Below are positions 21,100-27,957 of a stretch of DNA of 64,000 bases, one piece after another. The translations under genes and the position numbers were made by a program. The stretch is taken from assembly GCA_003221515.1 (NCBI GenBank), contig QHSI01000124.1, positions 1-64,000 of the forward strand, read 5' to 3'. This stretch comes from Candidatus Rokuibacteriota bacterium (GTDB lineage: Bacteria; Methylomirabilota; Methylomirabilia; Rokubacteriales; CSP1-6). How positions within the stretch are numbered: the stretch's first letter is position 1; every line of letters begins with the position of its first letter. The notes below the pieces were generated by a model. That model did no database searches. It had not been told where the DNA came from and was given only the letters and a program-made list of their open reading frames with translations.

Positions 21100-21279
21100 G
21101 TGGCGAAGCGAAAGCGGCCCGAGCTCGCCGAGCGCGTCGAGATCGTCGGCGAGCTCGATTCCCACGATGCCGAGGCGCTCCAACTCGAGCTCCGGCGGCT
21201 GGCGAAGCGCTACGGCGCGGCGATCGACGAGCTGAGCATCGAGACGTCGACGCTGGAGCAGGACGACCGTTCAGCGTAA
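21100..21279 (+). CDS. 59-aa acidic small protein
   Basis: GTG 21100, nine bases after the stop of the 48-aa gene, gives 59 residues: MAKRKRPELAERVEIVGELD at the start and DELSIETSTLEQDDRSA at the end, with a predicted helix (EALQLELRRLAKRYGAAIDE) between. It is opposite in charge to the preceding small protein, so a pair is conceivable. Its last nine bases overlap the 3' end of the convergent giant regulator gene. Hypothetical. Confidence 0.5.
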   Translation: MAKRKRPELAERVEIVGELDSHDAEALQLELRRLAKRYGAAIDELSIETSTLEQDDRSA

Positions 21280-24200
21280 CGCGGTGAGCGCCGTCTCGGC
21301 CTGGGCGAGCCAGAAGCGCATACCGAGCTCGCGGAACAGGCCGGCGGCGGCGCTCAGATGCTCCGCGGCCTTCGCGCCGTCACCGACCTTCTGCTGCCAC
21401 CGGCCGAGCCCCAACCGGGCAAGCCCGACGAGCGGGCGCATCTCGAGCTCGGTCCCCAGGGTCAGCGCGCGGCTGAACGACGCCTCGACGGACCCGCCAG
21501 CCTGATCGTCGCCGCGCAGCGCGATCTCGCCCAGCAACCGCCACGCCCAGGCCTCACGGCCGCGCTCCTTGTGCTCGCGCGCGATGTCGAGGGCGCGCTG
21601 GGCCGTCTCGGCCGCCTGACGACTGCGATCGGACAGCAAGGACGTTTCCGCGAGGCACATCAGCACCATCGACTGACCGCCGACCCAGGACATGGCCAGC
21701 GCCCGCTCAGCCGCTTCCTCCAGCAGAGGAATCGCCTCGGCGCCGCGGCCCGTCAGCGACAGCGCGATGCCCAGCGCGGAGGTCACCGGCGGCATCCAGA
21801 GCGACAGATGCCAGCTGCGGCAGAGGTCGAGCGCGCGAGTCAGCGTCGGAATCGCGGCCTCGAAGTCGCCCATCCTTACCTGAAGACTGCCGATGCCGGC
21901 GTACGCGGTGACGAGCGTATAGGGATGGTCGACGGCCTCGGCGATGCGGATGCCTTCGAGCCCGCGGCGAGTGCCCTCGGCGAATTCCCCCAGCTCGGCC
22001 AGGCACCAGACCAGCGCCGTCCGCGAGTGAACCGACGGCAGCTGGGGGAAACCGAGGGACTGGCGCTCCAGCTCGCCGCCGAGCGACGCGATGTTCCAGT
22101 CCAGGAGCGCCGCGGCGCGGCGGTAGCTGCCCAGCACGTAGTAGGTCTGCGCCAGGTAGGTGTTCGCTCTGAGCCGCGTGCTGAACTCGCCGTGCGTCTC
22201 GGTGAGCGCCAACGCCTGGCGGCCGTACTCGATCGCCCGATCAGGATCGCCCATCAGCCGGAAGTAGTCCGTCATGAATGCCGACACCTGGCCCAGGCGG
22301 CGCTGGTCGTCCAGGGCTCGCGCCAGCTGTTCCGCCTCCCGGAGGAATTCCAGGATGCGCGGGAACTCGCCGAGCGGCTGGAAGGCGTTGCGCAGGTCGA
22401 ATCTCAAGTCGATGGCGTGCTCGGTCCGCTCCCGGCTCTCGGGCAGACGCGCGAGGGCGTCGAGGGCCTGCTCGTAGTACGAGACCGCCTCCCGGTGCGC
22501 GCTCCGGCTGTACGCCTTCACGCCGGCCTGCCGGAGGTATCCGTGGGCCTTCGGCCACACGGCGCCCTCGAACGCGTGGTGGGCGAGCCCTTCCACATGC
22601 TCGGCGAGCCGCTCGGGATACGCGCGCTCGAGCGCCTCTACGACCTGCGCGTGTAGCTCACGCCGCGGCTCGGTGAGGAGGCGCCCGTACGCGACTTCGT
22701 GGGTGAGCGTGTGCTTGAACGTGTATTCGGTGTCCGGGCCCGCGCTCGTCTCGTAGAGGAACTCGGCGCCCTTGAGCCGGTCGAACGCCCGGCGGAGCCC
22801 GTCGTCCGGCGCCTTCGTGACCAGGCGCACGATCGAGAACGGAACGTCCTTACCGACGACCGCGGCGACTTCGAGGAGCCGCCGGTCTTCCTCGGCGAGG
22901 CGATCGATGCGACCCAGCAGCACCTCCTGGACCGTGTCGGGCACCGCGAGCGAGGGTGATCGCCCGACCTGCTCGCGGACGGTCCGGGCCAGCTCCTCCA
23001 GGAAGAACGGATTGCCCTCGGCCTTGGAGACGATGAGGTCCACGAGGCCGTTCGAGAATCGTTCCGAAACGCGGGTGAAATCGAGGACCGACCGCAACAC
23101 CCGCTGGCTGTCGTCGGGCGCCAGCGGCTGCAGAGCCACCTGGGTCACGTAGGACCGCTCGATCCACGGCGGCCGGTATCCCGAGCGATAGGTCGAGATG
23201 AGCAGGACGCGGGCGCCGGCGACGATCTCCGCGAGCGAGGCGAAGTATTCCTCCGAGGTGCGGTCGATCCAGTGCAGGTCTTCGACCACGACGACCAGCG
23301 GGCGCTGGCGACTCCGCTTGAGCGCGAGCTGGCGCAGCGTCTCGAAGACGCGCACCTTGGTCGCATCCGCTTCGAGCCCCGACGGCGGCCCGTCCGGCTC
23401 GACGCCGAGCAGGTGCAGCAGGTACGGCGCGGTCTCGAGCAGATCCATGCCGGCCTCGAGCAGGCTCGAGCGCACCTTGTCGGCGACCGTCGCGGGCGAG
23501 TCGCCGTCCGTGATCACGCACATCGCCTTCAGCACGTCGAGGACCGGAAGGTACGGAATCGCCGCGCCGTAGGACCGACACTGCCCTTCCACGTACGTGA
23601 CGGCGGCGCCCGCGATGCCGTCACGGAACTCGAACAGCAGGCGCGACTTGCCGATGCCGGCCTCGCCGCTGATTCCGACGATCTGGCCCTGGCCGCGAAT
23701 CGCCGACTCGAGGCGCGACTGCAGCAGATCGATCTCGCGATGGCGGCCCACGAAGGCCGCGGCGCGGTCGCGGACTCCGCGCCCCACGGCCCGGCGGCCC
23801 ACGAGCGCGAGCGCGCGGCCCTGTCCCGACGCGTCGGGAAGCTCGTGGAGCTCGAAGCCGCGCTCGAGGAACGGCGCCGCGGTCTCGCTGATCACGACGC
23901 CGTCGGGCTCGGCGCGGGCGATCAGCGCGTCGAGGATCGTCAGCGCCGCTTGCTTGCCCTCGACGTCGAGCTCGGCCGCGGCGGCGCCCTGCCCGACCAG
24001 AAACTGGCTCGTGTGGACCGCGACCCGGATCGCCGGCCCGGCGCCGGTCTCGTGCTTGGCGCGCTCGACGGCCTTCACGATCGCCATCGCGGCGTGCGCG
24101 GCGCGGCTCGGCGCGTCCTCGGTCGAATCGAGACCGAAGGCGGCGACGATGCCGGCGGGGCTCCGGCCCTCGATCCGTCCCTCGAAGCTCCGGATCTTGT

Positions 24201-25398
24201 CGAGGAGCACTTCGAGCGCGCGGCCCGTCTCGAGCAGCGCCTCGGGCGACGAGAGCGCGATCAGCGTCGCGCGCAACAGCGTGACCCGCCGTTGCTCCCA
24301 GCGAAGGGGCGTCGGCGACGACGCCGATGCCAGGGCGGGCCGCGGCGGCTCGAGGGGCGAGGGCTCGGCCGGCGGCGGTTCGGGGCGCGCTCGGCGCCGC
24401 TCGGGGCGGCGCGGCGGCGTCGATGTCGACGCCGCAGGGGTCTCCCCCTGGCGGAGTCCGTACTTCTCGATCCGCGCGCGCAGGGTGTTGCGCGAGATCC
24501 CGAGGAGCGCGGCCGTTCTCGAGATGTTCCAGCTCGTCTGCTGAAGGACGTCGACGACTCGATCGCGTACGGCGTCGTCGAGTGAGCTCGCCGACGCGGT
24601 GACGGCCGCCGACGCCGATGCGAGGTCCGGCAGACCGAGGGCGCCGGCGCGGACCTGGGACTCGGACGAGAGCAGCGCGACTCGCTCCATCAGGTTGCCG
24701 AGCTCGCGTACGTTGCCCGGCCACGCGTAGGCCAGGAGCGCCGCGCGCGCGTCGGCGGTGAGCGTCTTGGGCGGCATGCCGTAGTCGGCGCACGCCCGGC
24801 TCAGAAAGTGCTCGGCGAGCGTCAGGACGTCGCCCGCCCGCTGGCGCAGAGGCGGCAGCGTGAGGGAGAGCACGGCCAGGCGATGGTAGAGATCCTCGCG
24901 GAAGCGTCGGCGCTGGATCGCCGCTCGGAGATCCTCGTTGGTCGCCGTCAGGATCCACACGTCGACGTGCTCGTCGCGCGTCGCGCCCAGCCGGCGCACC
25001 GAGCGCTCCTCGAGCACCTTGAGCAGCTTCGCCTGGAGCGGCTCGGAGAGGAGACCCACCTCGTCGAGGAAGATCGTCCCGCGATTCGCGGCCTGGAACA
25101 GGCCGGGCTTGGCCCGTCGCGCGTCGGTGAAGGCGCCGCGCTCGAAGCCGAACATCTCCGCCTCGAGCAGGGTTTCCGGAATCGCCGCGCAGTTGACGTC
25201 GACGAAGGGACCGTCGGCGCGGGGCCCGGCCTTGTGGATCATCCGGGCCAGGAGGCCCTTCCCCGTCCCGGTCTCGCCCTCGATCAGTACGGGCGGAAGC
25301 CGACGCAGCTCGCCTTGCCGCTGCAGGAGCCGCACGACCCTCTCCCGGATCGCCTCGATACCCGAGCTGTCCCCGATGAGGTCGGCCAAGTGTTTCAC
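21271..25398 (-). CDS. sigma-54 activator / degenerate cyclase / STAND ATPase / TPR fusion regulator
   Basis: About 1375 residues. Numbering from the TTG at 25434: sigma-54 AAA+ domain with Walker A GETGTGKG (53-60), loop GAFTDA (100-105, normally GAFTGA), Walker B TIFLDEVG (120-127), WPGNVREL (238-245); Fis-type HTH (about 287-326, SWNISRTAALLGISRNTLRA); a Pro/Arg linker; a class III cyclase-like domain (about 378-548) that has lost its metal-binding aspartates; a second ATPase starting FVGRHREIDLL (561) with Walker A GEAGIGKS (590-597) and VVVVEDLHWID (714-724); then about 500 residues of TPR. GTG 25398 is favoured as start because -35 TTGAAC and -10 TAAGAT lie just before it. It likely activates the divergent gene pair, which has a sigma-54 promoter. 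Confidence 0.9.
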   Translation of the reverse strand: MKHLADLIGDSSGIEAIRERVVRLLQRQGELRRLPPVLIEGETGTGKGLLARMIHKAGPRADGPFVDVNCAAIPETLLEAEMFGFERGAFTDARRAKPGLFQAANRGTIFLDEVGLLSEPLQAKLLKVLEERSVRRLGATRDEHVDVWILTATNEDLRAAIQRRRFREDLYHRLAVLSLTLPPLRQRAGDVLTLAEHFLSRACADYGMPPKTLTADARAALLAYAWPGNVRELGNLMERVALLSSESQVRAGALGLPDLASASAAVTASASSLDDAVRDRVVDVLQQTSWNISRTAALLGISRNTLRARIEKYGLRQGETPAASTSTPPRRPERRRARPEPPPAEPSPLEPPRPALASASSPTPLRWEQRRVTLLRATLIALSSPEALLETGRALEVLLDKIRSFEGRIEGRSPAGIVAAFGLDSTEDAPSRAAHAAMAIVKAVERAKHETGAGPAIRVAVHTSQFLVGQGAAAAELDVEGKQAALTILDALIARAEPDGVVISETAAPFLERGFELHELPDASGQGRALALVGRRAVGRGVRDRAAAFVGRHREIDLLQSRLESAIRGQGQIVGISGEAGIGKSRLLFEFRDGIAGAAVTYVEGQCRSYGAAIPYLPVLDVLKAMCVITDGDSPATVADKVRSSLLEAGMDLLETAPYLLHLLGVEPDGPPSGLEADATKVRVFETLRQLALKRSRQRPLVVVVEDLHWIDRTSEEYFASLAEIVAGARVLLISTYRSGYRPPWIERSYVTQVALQPLAPDDSQRVLRSVLDFTRVSERFSNGLVDLIVSKAEGNPFFLEELARTVREQVGRSPSLAVPDTVQEVLLGRIDRLAEEDRRLLEVAAVVGKDVPFSIVRLVTKAPDDGLRRAFDRLKGAEFLYETSAGPDTEYTFKHTLTHEVAYGRLLTEPRRELHAQVVEALERAYPERLAEHVEGLAHHAFEGAVWPKAHGYLRQAGVKAYSRSAHREAVSYYEQALDALARLPESRERTEHAIDLRFDLRNAFQPLGEFPRILEFLREAEQLARALDDQRRLGQVSAFMTDYFRLMGDPDRAIEYGRQALALTETHGEFSTRLRANTYLAQTYYVLGSYRRAAALLDWNIASLGGELERQSLGFPQLPSVHSRTALVWCLAELGEFAEGTRRGLEGIRIAEAVDHPYTLVTAYAGIGSLQVRMGDFEAAIPTLTRALDLCRSWHLSLWMPPVTSALGIALSLTGRGAEAIPLLEEAAERALAMSWVGGQSMVLMCLAETSLLSDRSRQAAETAQRALDIAREHKERGREAWAWRLLGEIALRGDDQAGGSVEASFSRALTLGTELEMRPLVGLARLGLGRWQQKVGDGAKAAEHLSAAAGLFRELGMRFWLAQAETALTALR

Positions 25399-25405
25399 CT
25401 CACGC

Positions 25406-25434
25406 ATCTTACGGTCGGACAAGCGAGTGTTCAA
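25406..25434 (-). promoter_or_regulatory. sigma-70 promoter of the giant regulator
   Basis: On the minus strand TTGAAC (25434-25429), a 17-base spacer and TAAGAT (25411-25406). The -10 box is seven bases before GTG 25398, so the transcript would begin at or near the start codon. Two upstream TTG codons and an ATG in the same frame fall inside the promoter and are therefore unlikely starts. Confidence 0.6.
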
Positions 25435-25505
25435 CTCTTGACCACCGCTGACTTGTCCACTGGTTACCGTACGACGTAGCTAGCTGTTTTTGTTCGCGGG
25501 AGCGA

Positions 25506-25521
25506 TGGTATCCGGCTTGCC
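25506..25521 (+). promoter_or_regulatory. sigma-54 (-24/-12) promoter
   Basis: TGG at 25506-25508 and TTGC at 25517-25520 place GG and GC exactly 10 bases apart, as in the consensus TGGCAC-N5-TTGC. The expected start of transcription (about 25532) leaves room for the ribosome site GGAGG (25536-25540) and TTG 25546. The divergent neighbour encodes a sigma-54 activator, which supports the call. Confidence 0.65.
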
Positions 25522-25545
25522 TTCCGGTAATACCCGGAGGCGTAC

Positions 25546-26118
25546 TTGAAAGCAGACCAGTCGCTCGGCTCGCACACCTCGCTGGTGCTCGCCGTGGCCT
25601 CGGTGGCCACGCTGATGGTCGTCGCCGTCATGGCCATGGACCTGTTCGCCGACCACGCGCTGGGGACGGACGCGCAGCTCGCGTGGCGGGCGCAGCTGAA
25701 GAAGGTCGACGCGGCGCTCGCCAACAACGACGTCAGCGCCGCCGAGCTGGCGTGGCGCGAGACGTACGCGGCCGCCCTGAAGAGCCGCCACTGGGAGGGC
25801 ATGGTCGCAGTGGGCGACGCCTGCTGGCAGGTCGGCGACGCCGGCGGCTTCCATCACGCGGCCCGCGCGAAGGCGCGTCAGAGCTACCTGACGGCGCTGT
25901 TCCGCGCCCGCGGCGAAGGATCGGTCGATGGTGTCCTGCGAGTGGCCGAGCGCTTCGCGGAGCTCGGAGATCGCGACGTCGTCGAGCAGTGCATCCGGGT
26001 CGCGTGGACCGTCGCCGCGCAGGCGAAGGACCCGCTCGCCCAGCAGAGCGTCCGAGCGTTCACCGAGCGATGGGAGGCACGCGCGCTCGAAGCTGAACCA
26101 CTGAATTTCACGCAGTAG
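25546..26118 (+). CDS. membrane-anchored paralogue 1 of a small two-gene pair
   Basis: 190 residues from TTG 25546, fixed by GGAGG five bases upstream. An N-terminal transmembrane helix (TSLVLAVASVATLMVVAVMA) leads to a helical domain that is clearly related to the next gene product: AELAWRETYAAALKSRHWEG and YLTALFRARGEGSVDGVLRV match AWRQAYSSALSHPGW and FFRARQQRSLNGVLH there. The repeated pattern of helices resembles a TPR-like solenoid. A sigma-54 promoter lies directly upstream, and the divergent gene encodes a sigma-54 activator with TPRs, so its expression is probably signal-dependent. Function unknown. Confidence 0.8.
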   Translation: MKADQSLGSHTSLVLAVASVATLMVVAVMAMDLFADHALGTDAQLAWRAQLKKVDAALANNDVSAAELAWRETYAAALKSRHWEGMVAVGDACWQVGDAGGFHHAARAKARQSYLTALFRARGEGSVDGVLRVAERFAELGDRDVVEQCIRVAWTVAAQAKDPLAQQSVRAFTERWEARALEAEPLNFTQ

Positions 26119-26139: not shown

Positions 26140-26610
26140 ATGATGCAGCACGTGTTCGGGGCGATCGACGCGCTCGGTCCGTGGACCGCGCACATCCAGG
26201 CGATGAACCGGGCCTTGGCCGACAACAATCCAGGCGAGTCCGTCCGCGCGTGGCGACAGGCGTACTCGTCCGCGCTCAGCCATCCGGGCTGGCTCGGGCT
26301 CCTCACCGTGGCCGCCGCCTCGCTCCGGCTGGGCACGTTCCCCGGACTCGCGCGGGGCGCCACGGCTCGGGCGCGGGAGACGTACTGGATCGCGTTCTTC
26401 CGCGCGCGCCAGCAGCGCTCGCTCAACGGCGTGCTGCACGCGGCCGAGGCCTTCGGCCGGCTCGGCGATCGCTCGACCGTCGACCAGTGCATGCGAGTCG
26501 CCGAGGGTCTCGTCGCGCTCAGCGGCGATGGCGCCGACGTGGATCGCGTACGCATTCTCGGCACGCGGCTGGCGGAGCAGTCCCTGGTCGAAGAGCACGG
26601 AGCGGTGTAG
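26140..26610 (+). CDS. soluble paralogue 2 of the small two-gene pair
   Basis: 156 residues from ATG 26140 with GAGGAGG eight bases upstream. It aligns along its length with the product of the preceding gene (RALADNNPGESVRAWRQAYS against DAALANNDVSAAELAWRETY; FGRLGDRSTVDQCMRVAEGL against FAELGDRDVVEQCIRVAWTV) but lacks the membrane helix. The two probably arose by tandem duplication and may form a complex in which the first is the membrane anchor. Only 21 nt separate them, so one sigma-54-driven mRNA is likely. Confidence 0.8.
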   Translation: MMQHVFGAIDALGPWTAHIQAMNRALADNNPGESVRAWRQAYSSALSHPGWLGLLTVAAASLRLGTFPGLARGATARARETYWIAFFRARQQRSLNGVLHAAEAFGRLGDRSTVDQCMRVAEGLVALSGDGADVDRVRILGTRLAEQSLVEEHGAV

Positions 26611-26644: not shown

Positions 26645-26908
26645 CTAGCGGCGTGGGCTGCGGCCGGCGGGCTGGGAGAGCGGGTCTTCTTTCTTCTGCT
26701 CGGCCTTGGGAGGAGTCACGGCGACCCAGCCCCGCGCCTTCATGCAATTCTCGTCGAGGATGCCCTTGACCGTGCACTGGGCGAAGTCGCGACGGAATTC
26801 CTCCGTCGTGTATTTTTGGTCGACCTTCATCCACTCGCGTTGATCCGACCCGCAGCCCGCGGAGACGACCGCCAGCCCGAGAACGCTCAGCGCCACATTT
26901 CTCAGCAT
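26645..26908 (-). CDS. small lipoprotein
   Basis: 87 residues from ATG 26908: signal MLRNVALSVLGLAVVSAGC with the lipobox cysteine at residue 19, then a short charged domain (YTTEEFRRDFAQCTVKGILD, two cysteines that could pair). It should be exported and lipidated. A -10 box TACAAT lies nine bases before the ATG. No family recognised. The downstream end faces the convergent small-gene pair. Confidence 0.75.
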   Translation of the reverse strand: MLRNVALSVLGLAVVSAGCGSDQREWMKVDQKYTTEEFRRDFAQCTVKGILDENCMKARGWVAVTPPKAEQKKEDPLSQPAGRSPRR

Positions 26909-26946: not shown

Positions 26947-27957
26947 TCAGGGGGCGGCCGCTCCGCCCGTGGGTGGCCGGAAGAGCACGTAGCCGACCCC
27001 GGCCCGCTCGAGCCAAACGCGACGCAGCTCGTCGAGGCGGTAGCGGCGTGACACGCCGGAGGCGGTCGGCGCCGCCGGGTCGTTCACGAAGACGGCATCG
27101 TCGGCATGCCCGGTCAGCACCAGCAGATGTCCCAGGGTCTCGGAGACCGCGGCGCCTGTCAGCTCGCCCGCCCCGTAGCGGACCGAGGCGATGATGGGCA
27201 TCCCCTGCGCGAGACACCATTCGGCGGCGCTCCAGTCGGGGAAGCGCAGCAAGTACCCCGCGATACCGTGCCGGCCCGCCGTGCAGACCGCCGCCGGCCA
27301 GACGCCGTAGATGTCGAGGTCAGGTTGAAAGATCTCGCGGGCGAGGTCGGCGACGGCGACGCTGACGCCGTAGTACGCGAGCACCATCGCGACGCACGTC
27401 GGCGAGCAGATCCTCGACCGGATCGCGGCGTCCTCCTCCATCTGGCTCACCGCGGGGACGACGAGCCTCGCGCTTCCGCCGGCTGACGTTTCTTCGGACA
27501 CCGCCGGACTCCACGCCGAGAGCGAGACGAACCATGGCGCGGCGAGCGGCGCGTCGCGCGCGCCGGCGACGCGCAGAACCAAACGGACTCGCTCCGCCGG
27601 TGGCGAAGCGATGAACTCGTCGATCTGGGCGACGAGCGAGTCAGTCCCCGCGGCGGCGATGGGGAGTCGCGCCGGCCCCACGGTCGCGCCCGCGACCCAG
27701 GGCGACCAGGCGCCGGCCGCGAACGCGGACAGCTCAAATCTGAAAGGAGGAACGTCGCGGCCGAGGGCGCTGAGCGCGGGGACCAGGCGATGCGCGGGGC
27801 GCCGGGGGCTCCACTCCGGGAGCTCGACGATCATGCTGTCGCCGTCGCGCCGCGGGCGCGGAGCCGCGCTGACGCCTCGATAGCACGACGGTGGCACGGC
27901 CCGGGCGACCGAATCCTCTGGCCACGCGGAGGCGGAGACGAACAGATCAGTGGGCAA
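26947..27957 (-). CDS. C39-like cysteine peptidase family protein
   Basis: 336 residues (TTG 27957; the true start may be slightly downstream). An N-terminal beta-rich domain (WSPRRPAHRLVPALSALGRD, FELSAFAAGAWSPWVAG) precedes a papain-like peptidase_C39_2 domain: IRSRICSPTCVAMVLAYYG with the nucleophile Cys in CSPT, AAVCTAGRHGIAGYLLRF, the histidine in SETLGHLLVLTGHADDA and the Asp in VFVNDPAAPTASG. No signal peptide or ABC domain, so it is not a bacteriocin exporter. Probably a peptidase or amide hydrolase; substrate unknown. The upstream 400 bases contain several hairpins. Confidence 0.75.
   Translation of the reverse strand: MPTDLFVSASAWPEDSVARAVPPSCYRGVSAAPRPRRDGDSMIVELPEWSPRRPAHRLVPALSALGRDVPPFRFELSAFAAGAWSPWVAGATVGPARLPIAAAGTDSLVAQIDEFIASPPAERVRLVLRVAGARDAPLAAPWFVSLSAWSPAVSEETSAGGSARLVVPAVSQMEEDAAIRSRICSPTCVAMVLAYYGVSVAVADLAREIFQPDLDIYGVWPAAVCTAGRHGIAGYLLRFPDWSAAEWCLAQGMPIIASVRYGAGELTGAAVSETLGHLLVLTGHADDAVFVNDPAAPTASGVSRRYRLDELRRVWLERAGVGYVLFRPPTGGAAAP

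Follow-up and report, generated by a model that had tools for sequence, protein, structure and literature searches.

The window analysed here is the whole stretch of 64,000 nucleotides (64 kb) comprising positions 1–64,000 of the forward strand of contig QHSI01000124.1, from Candidatus Rokuibacteriota bacterium (GCA_003221515.1). It was found to possess a gene for a giant regulator (R) lying divergent from a pair of small paralogous genes (A and B). The features of the locus are as follows:

21271–25398, minus strand: regulator R, approximately 1375 aa from GTG 25398 (the ORF opens at TTG 25434), placed by Pfam and homologue starts.
25406–25434, minus strand: candidate sigma-70-type promoter of R, TTGAAC-N17-TAAGAT, with a spacing of 17–19 kept in 8 loci.
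25429–25446, plus strand: candidate enhancer (UAS), an imperfect dyad GTTCAA-CTC-TTGACC followed by ACC (GTTCAA-CTC-TTGACCACC), 77 bp upstream of the promoter TGG.
25477–25491, plus strand: conserved middle element of the TAAC..TTTTT type (here the weaker GTAGCTAGCTGTTTTT), 28–31 bp upstream of TGG.
25506–25520, plus strand: sigma-54 -24/-12 promoter TGGTATCCGGCTTGC, with transcription predicted to begin near 25532, conserved in 18/18 divergent loci.
25546–26118, plus strand: gene A, 190 aa, starting at TTG and preceded by GGAGG (25536–25540); a hydrophobic N-terminal segment and then a predicted helical-repeat domain.
26140–26610, plus strand: gene B, 156 aa, a paralogue of A without the hydrophobic N-terminus and the second gene of the putative operon.

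Convergent with gene B is a small lipoprotein-like ORF (MLRNVALSVLGLAVVSAGCGS; 26645–26908, minus strand), and next to it lies a probable C39-like cysteine peptidase (26947–27957, minus strand; CSPTCVAMVLAYYG ... GHLLVLTG), an assignment made by eye on the ORF.

Two starts were considered for R. The TTG at 25434, which opens the long ORF, falls within the enhancer dyad. In the homologues L036, L038, L160, and L173, the frame meets a stop two to five codons upstream of the MKHL, MNPL or MDPL with which the protein would begin, which makes this TTG an unlikely start. R therefore probably begins at GTG 25398, and the intergenic region is then approximately 147 bp instead of 111 bp.

According to Pfam, the domain order of R is Sigma54_activat (carrying a GAFTDA loop), AAA lid, HTH_8, AAA_16 (a STAND-type ATPase), and TPRs, and this architecture is repeated in two distant homologues (L160 and L173); a degenerate cyclase-like segment lies ahead of AAA_16. 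The divergent gene had been described as a sigma-54 activator from its sequence alone, and this was borne out by the Sigma54_activat match (E 3.4e-59), with Walker A (GETGTGKG) and Walker B (FLDE) motifs present in the sequence. The HTH_8 match (E 1.2e-10) covers a Fis-type HTH with a helix which is conserved among homologues. The AAA+ match begins at residue 23 of the long form, leaving a large remainder after the HTH, of which ~1,000 residues are degenerate-cyclase/STAND/TPR; nearly all homologues have ~1,280 residues beyond the GAFT motif. The segment between the HTH and AAA_16 resembles class III cyclases. The metal-site motifs expected of that family are replaced in all aligned homologues, from which we infer that the segment is catalytically dead.

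The sigma-54 loop reads GAFTDA and not GAFTGA in R and in every homologue where the motif was found, the pattern search for this loop finding it in only part of the genome's sigma-54 activators. Campylobacter FlgR naturally has Asp in place of Gly at this position (Francke et al., 2011; PMC3162934), the substitution is also listed for the Desulfovibrio regulator DVU2106 (PMC4641369), and an engineered NorR G266D keeps its activity and is freed from its repressing domain (PMC2941729). On the other side, VfmH with GAFTDA gave no sigma-54 pull-down (PMC10714721). By analogy with these proteins, activation of sigma-54 by R is plausible but not guaranteed.

Genes A and B share 38% identity, with conserved W, G, R, and Y positions common to both. 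Neither gave a match in Pfam (E<=1, TPR profiles included), NCBIfam or PADLOC; PDB sequence matches to designed helical proteins were judged to be composition-driven. The two constitute a new family. An AlphaFold2 model of A (mean pLDDT 90) has seven helices, arranged as a bundle after the N-terminal hydrophobic helix, and a Foldseek search of the PDB returned designed helical repeats and TPRs weakly (none below E 0.001; TM ~0.3–0.5). Both proteins are thus predicted to be TPR-like helical bundles, and the positive-inside rule would place the domain of A outside the cytoplasm. A profile of A/B compared with the TPR region of R gave a probability of 5%, for which reason a common origin with the TPRs of the R sensor is not claimed. 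That A and B feed back on this sensor is a guess.

The genome of the window encodes RpoN (Sigma54_DBD, E 7.9e-61, contig C137). It has ~25 other strong Sigma54_activat matches in addition to R, and one copy of the R type when searched with the AAA-HTH part as query. Relatives of gene A were found in 43 of the 148 genomes searched; those that carry a name belong to Candidatus Rokubacteria and Methylomirabilota and are all metagenome-assembled.

The sequence-only reading of this DNA had noted GG and GC 10 bases apart (TGG-N8-TTGC at 25506–25520), a ribosome site at 25536 and a TTG start at 25546. Direct reading confirmed these letters: TGG occupies 25506–25508 and TTGC 25517–25520, giving an exact GG (25507–08)-N10-GC (25519–20), and GGAGG (25536–25540) and TTG (25546–25548) are present downstream. 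The site agrees with the consensus TGGCACG-N4-TTGCW at 8 of 12 positions (TGG, A, and TTGC). The bare pattern TGG-N8-TTGC is at chance level in the window (4 found, 3.58 expected), and it is the comparative evidence that decides. The fuller TGGYAYN5TTGC occurs once in the window with 0.07 expected. Genome-wide statistics were obtained by pattern searches with reversed-pattern controls; this form has 45 matches compared with 11 for its control, suggesting that the genome uses such promoters.

For the comparison, 18 related Rokubacteria loci were assembled in which the giant regulator is divergent from an A/B-family gene. The form TGG-N8-NTGC was present in all 18, pointing toward the small genes and with TGG and TGC invariant, a count which takes in L030 with a corrected start and L022 read as TGGCACCTCATGTGC (TGTGC accepted). 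The strict form TGG[CT]A-N6-[CT]TGC was found in 14, and in these loci it occurs neither on the opposite strand nor in the reversed sequence. Dinucleotide shuffles gave 0.07 expected, a figure which overstates independence as the loci share ancestry. The better argument is that the promoter letters are spread across several genera and families, and they have stayed fixed while the flanking DNA diverged. A sigma-54 promoter driving the A–B pair is therefore strongly supported, and the original call of a good promoter facing the pair was upheld.

Alignment on the -24 box revealed two further conserved blocks upstream, one enhancer-like and one termed here the middle element. The former lies 67–80 bp upstream of -24 in nearly all loci. 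In group 1 (17 promoters) it reads GTTCAA-N3-TTGACCA[CG] and starts 76–80 bp upstream of TGG; in group 2 it reads CCACCACCACC, ~67–77 bp upstream. The middle element, AA(C/G)..TTTTT in both groups, shows no obvious IHF consensus. Information peaks in fixed register occur at -29/-28 and -19 to -16, again in both groups. A terminator-like site at 25460–25483, which overlaps the middle element, was not taken as a terminator.

A search of 99 genomes by DNA pattern only (enhancer plus promoter, with reversed patterns as controls) gave 28 of the TTGACCA-N45-75-promoter form among the matches listed, compared with two for the reversed control. The CCACCACCA-form enhancer with promoter gave 23 among the matches listed (~18 distinct sites), compared with one. 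An A/B-family gene follows immediately after most of the CCACC-type sites, so that a search of DNA alone recovers the gene family. The only match to the TTGACCA form in the genome of the window is the A–B site beside R. Many of the TTGACCA-pattern matches outside A/B loci (L109–L113, L116, L119, L126, L130, and L136) look unrelated and were set aside.

At the loci of A relatives, a homologue of the giant regulator is often divergent and adjacent, with ~65–90% identity in the AAA-HTH part. The recognition helix reads RNTL[RK]AR, with an alanine, in 14 of 14 regulators of the TTGACC group, and RNT[LMIV]RYR, with a tyrosine, in regulators of the other group. At L167 a third enhancer form accompanies a glycine helix (RNTLRGR), and L160 has a tyrosine-type HTH without the CCACC element. 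In the regulator tree the TTGACC group forms one clade and the glycine form is placed among the tyrosine forms, so the covariation of enhancer and HTH amounts to only about two independent branch changes. The tracking of recognition helix by enhancer type is supportive, not conclusive, in favouring the neighbouring regulator as activator. Taken with the conserved adjacency, the fixed-distance element, and the presence here of one regulator and one target promoter, it makes R a well supported candidate for activator of the A–B promoter.

The best explanation of the locus as a whole, to which we give a probability of roughly 0.85, is that the sigma-54 promoter at 25506–25520 drives A–B and is opened by the divergent R bound at the enhancer. 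A and B would be transcribed as a two-gene operon from ~25532 off this RpoN promoter, at which sigma-54 RNA polymerase would wait in the closed state. The Fis-type HTH of R would bind GTTCAA-CTC-TTGACC(ACC), ~77 bp upstream of -24, and the C-terminal degenerate-cyclase/STAND-ATPase/TPR part is proposed to sense a signal, upon which the N-terminal AAA+ would hydrolyse ATP and the promoter would be opened.

It is improbable that the promoter is real and is switched on by another activator of the genome instead of R. The ~25 other strong Sigma54_activat matches supply candidates, and some A/B genes of relatives lack a regulator within the fetched stretch yet keep a similar element and promoter (e.g., L005, L014, L020, and L021). 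Against this, the divergent pairing is conserved across 18 loci, enhancer type follows the recognition helix of the neighbouring regulator, and the genome's only TTGACC-type enhancer-promoter adjoins R. The earlier proposal that the giant regulator switches on the paralogue pair is thus partly supported overall, by comparison of sequences. Its description as a self-contained signal-response module suits this genome, which has one regulator, one A–B pair, and one enhancer-promoter match, but not all relatives: some have A/B-type genes with the same promoter but no regulator within the stretch fetched, and there are paralogues of the regulator that face other genes.

The upstream block could also be explained by transcription of R itself. 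The candidate R promoter TTGAAC-N17-TAAGAT is weak (8 of 12 consensus matches), and a generic sigma-70 scan of the region called nothing, this site included. It would probably start transcription ~1 base before GTG 25398, giving an almost leaderless transcript. That the conserved block is merely this sigma-70 promoter (TTGAAC-N17/19-TAAGAT), with no enhancer, draws on the 17–19 spacing of -35 and -10 kept in eight close relatives. This too appears unlikely, as conservation extends past the -35 (TTGACCACC) and a similar element stands at a similar distance from -24 at the four A/B loci named above, which have no divergent regulator. The -35 lies inside the enhancer dyad, on which basis negative autoregulation is proposed: R bound at the enhancer would probably limit its own expression too. 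A chance match doing nothing (GC-rich DNA often contains TGG-N8-TTGC, whose count in the window is close to expectation) is highly improbable, given that all 18 orthologous and paralogous intergenic regions keep the site in the right orientation with a partner element at a fixed distance.

The analysis also took in the 5' sides of 20 more paralogues of the regulator that lie apart from A/B genes. In ~8 of them the far side carries a good -24/-12 site, in most cases at a comparable distance, and several of these sites come with a CTCAA..TTACCA or CCACC element. By profile, no A/B gene follows any of these ~8 sites. It thus seems that the regulators are an expanded family in which a member often faces a target of its own, A–B being one such target. 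Paralogues at L181, L182, L183, L186, L187, L189, L196, and L197 face good -24/-12 sites with related elements and different genes, such as a lipoprotein-like protein at L182. At L137 and L183 this enhancer-promoter layout stands ahead of what appears, judged by eye, to be a CDP-alcohol phosphatidyltransferase-like membrane protein, and at L137 an acyltransferase-like protein comes next. At L027, a short membrane peptide ORF lies between two -24/-12 sites, in the interval between the regulator and the A-type gene, with a CCACCACC stretch upstream of each site.

At about even odds, R may belong to a Rokubacteria-specific expansion of an undescribed bEBP architecture (N-terminal AAA+/HTH, C-terminal degenerate-cyclase/STAND/TPR sensor, GAFTDA), many members of which would face their own sigma-54 promoter via a fixed-distance enhancer, this copy controlling a new small helical-repeat family that may feed back on the TPR sensor. 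The sensors that switch sigma-54 activators are normally N-terminal; if the proposal is true, a STAND/TPR sensor placed after the DNA-binding domain would gate the AAA+ ring in a different manner. A single promoter guess would also become a family-wide regulatory code of activator, enhancer, promoter, and genes in an uncultured phylum, and the pairing of enhancer and helix would offer a natural specificity series for Fis-type HTHs. The uncultured Rokubacteria are soil and groundwater bacteria, and the promoter and enhancer spacing is kept across many of these. None of the papers searched links Rokubacteria to sigma-54.

Several known systems resemble parts of this arrangement. The AAA+HTH part of R matches the RtcR-type CARF-AAA-HTH activators (PADLOC PDLC01995, E 3e-97), but only from profile position 154; CARF is absent and there is no room for it before the AAA+. 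The C-terminal 900 residues align with TOMM_kin_cyc (TIGR03903; a kinase/cyclase/ATPase/TPR fusion; E 9e-88), with R below the cut-off of that family (295 compared with 706 bits) and matching from profile position 333; in R the bEBP module replaces the N-terminal kinase, and the cyclase-like segment is without the metal-site motif. R shares an AAA+ sigma-54 domain followed by HTH_8 with the bEBP architectures Ia, Ib, Ic, and II of Francke et al. (2011; PMC3162934). The signal part of these is N-terminal in Ia and Ib, is missing from Ic, and is of the PTS type in II. Unlike Ia and Ib, R has no signal domain before the AAA+ and instead carries its ~1,000 additional residues after the HTH. A parallel in layout is NorR-norVW of Escherichia coli, where an activator with a Fis-type HTH is likewise divergent from a sigma-54 operon with intergenic enhancers. 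NorR has an N-terminal GAF sensor and three enhancers (PMC2941729), whereas the proposed sensor of R follows the HTH, only one main enhancer is seen, and the motif reads GAFTDA. A divergent bEBP with a sigma-54 target is a known kind of mechanism, whereas the layout of this regulator and the family of its target are new.
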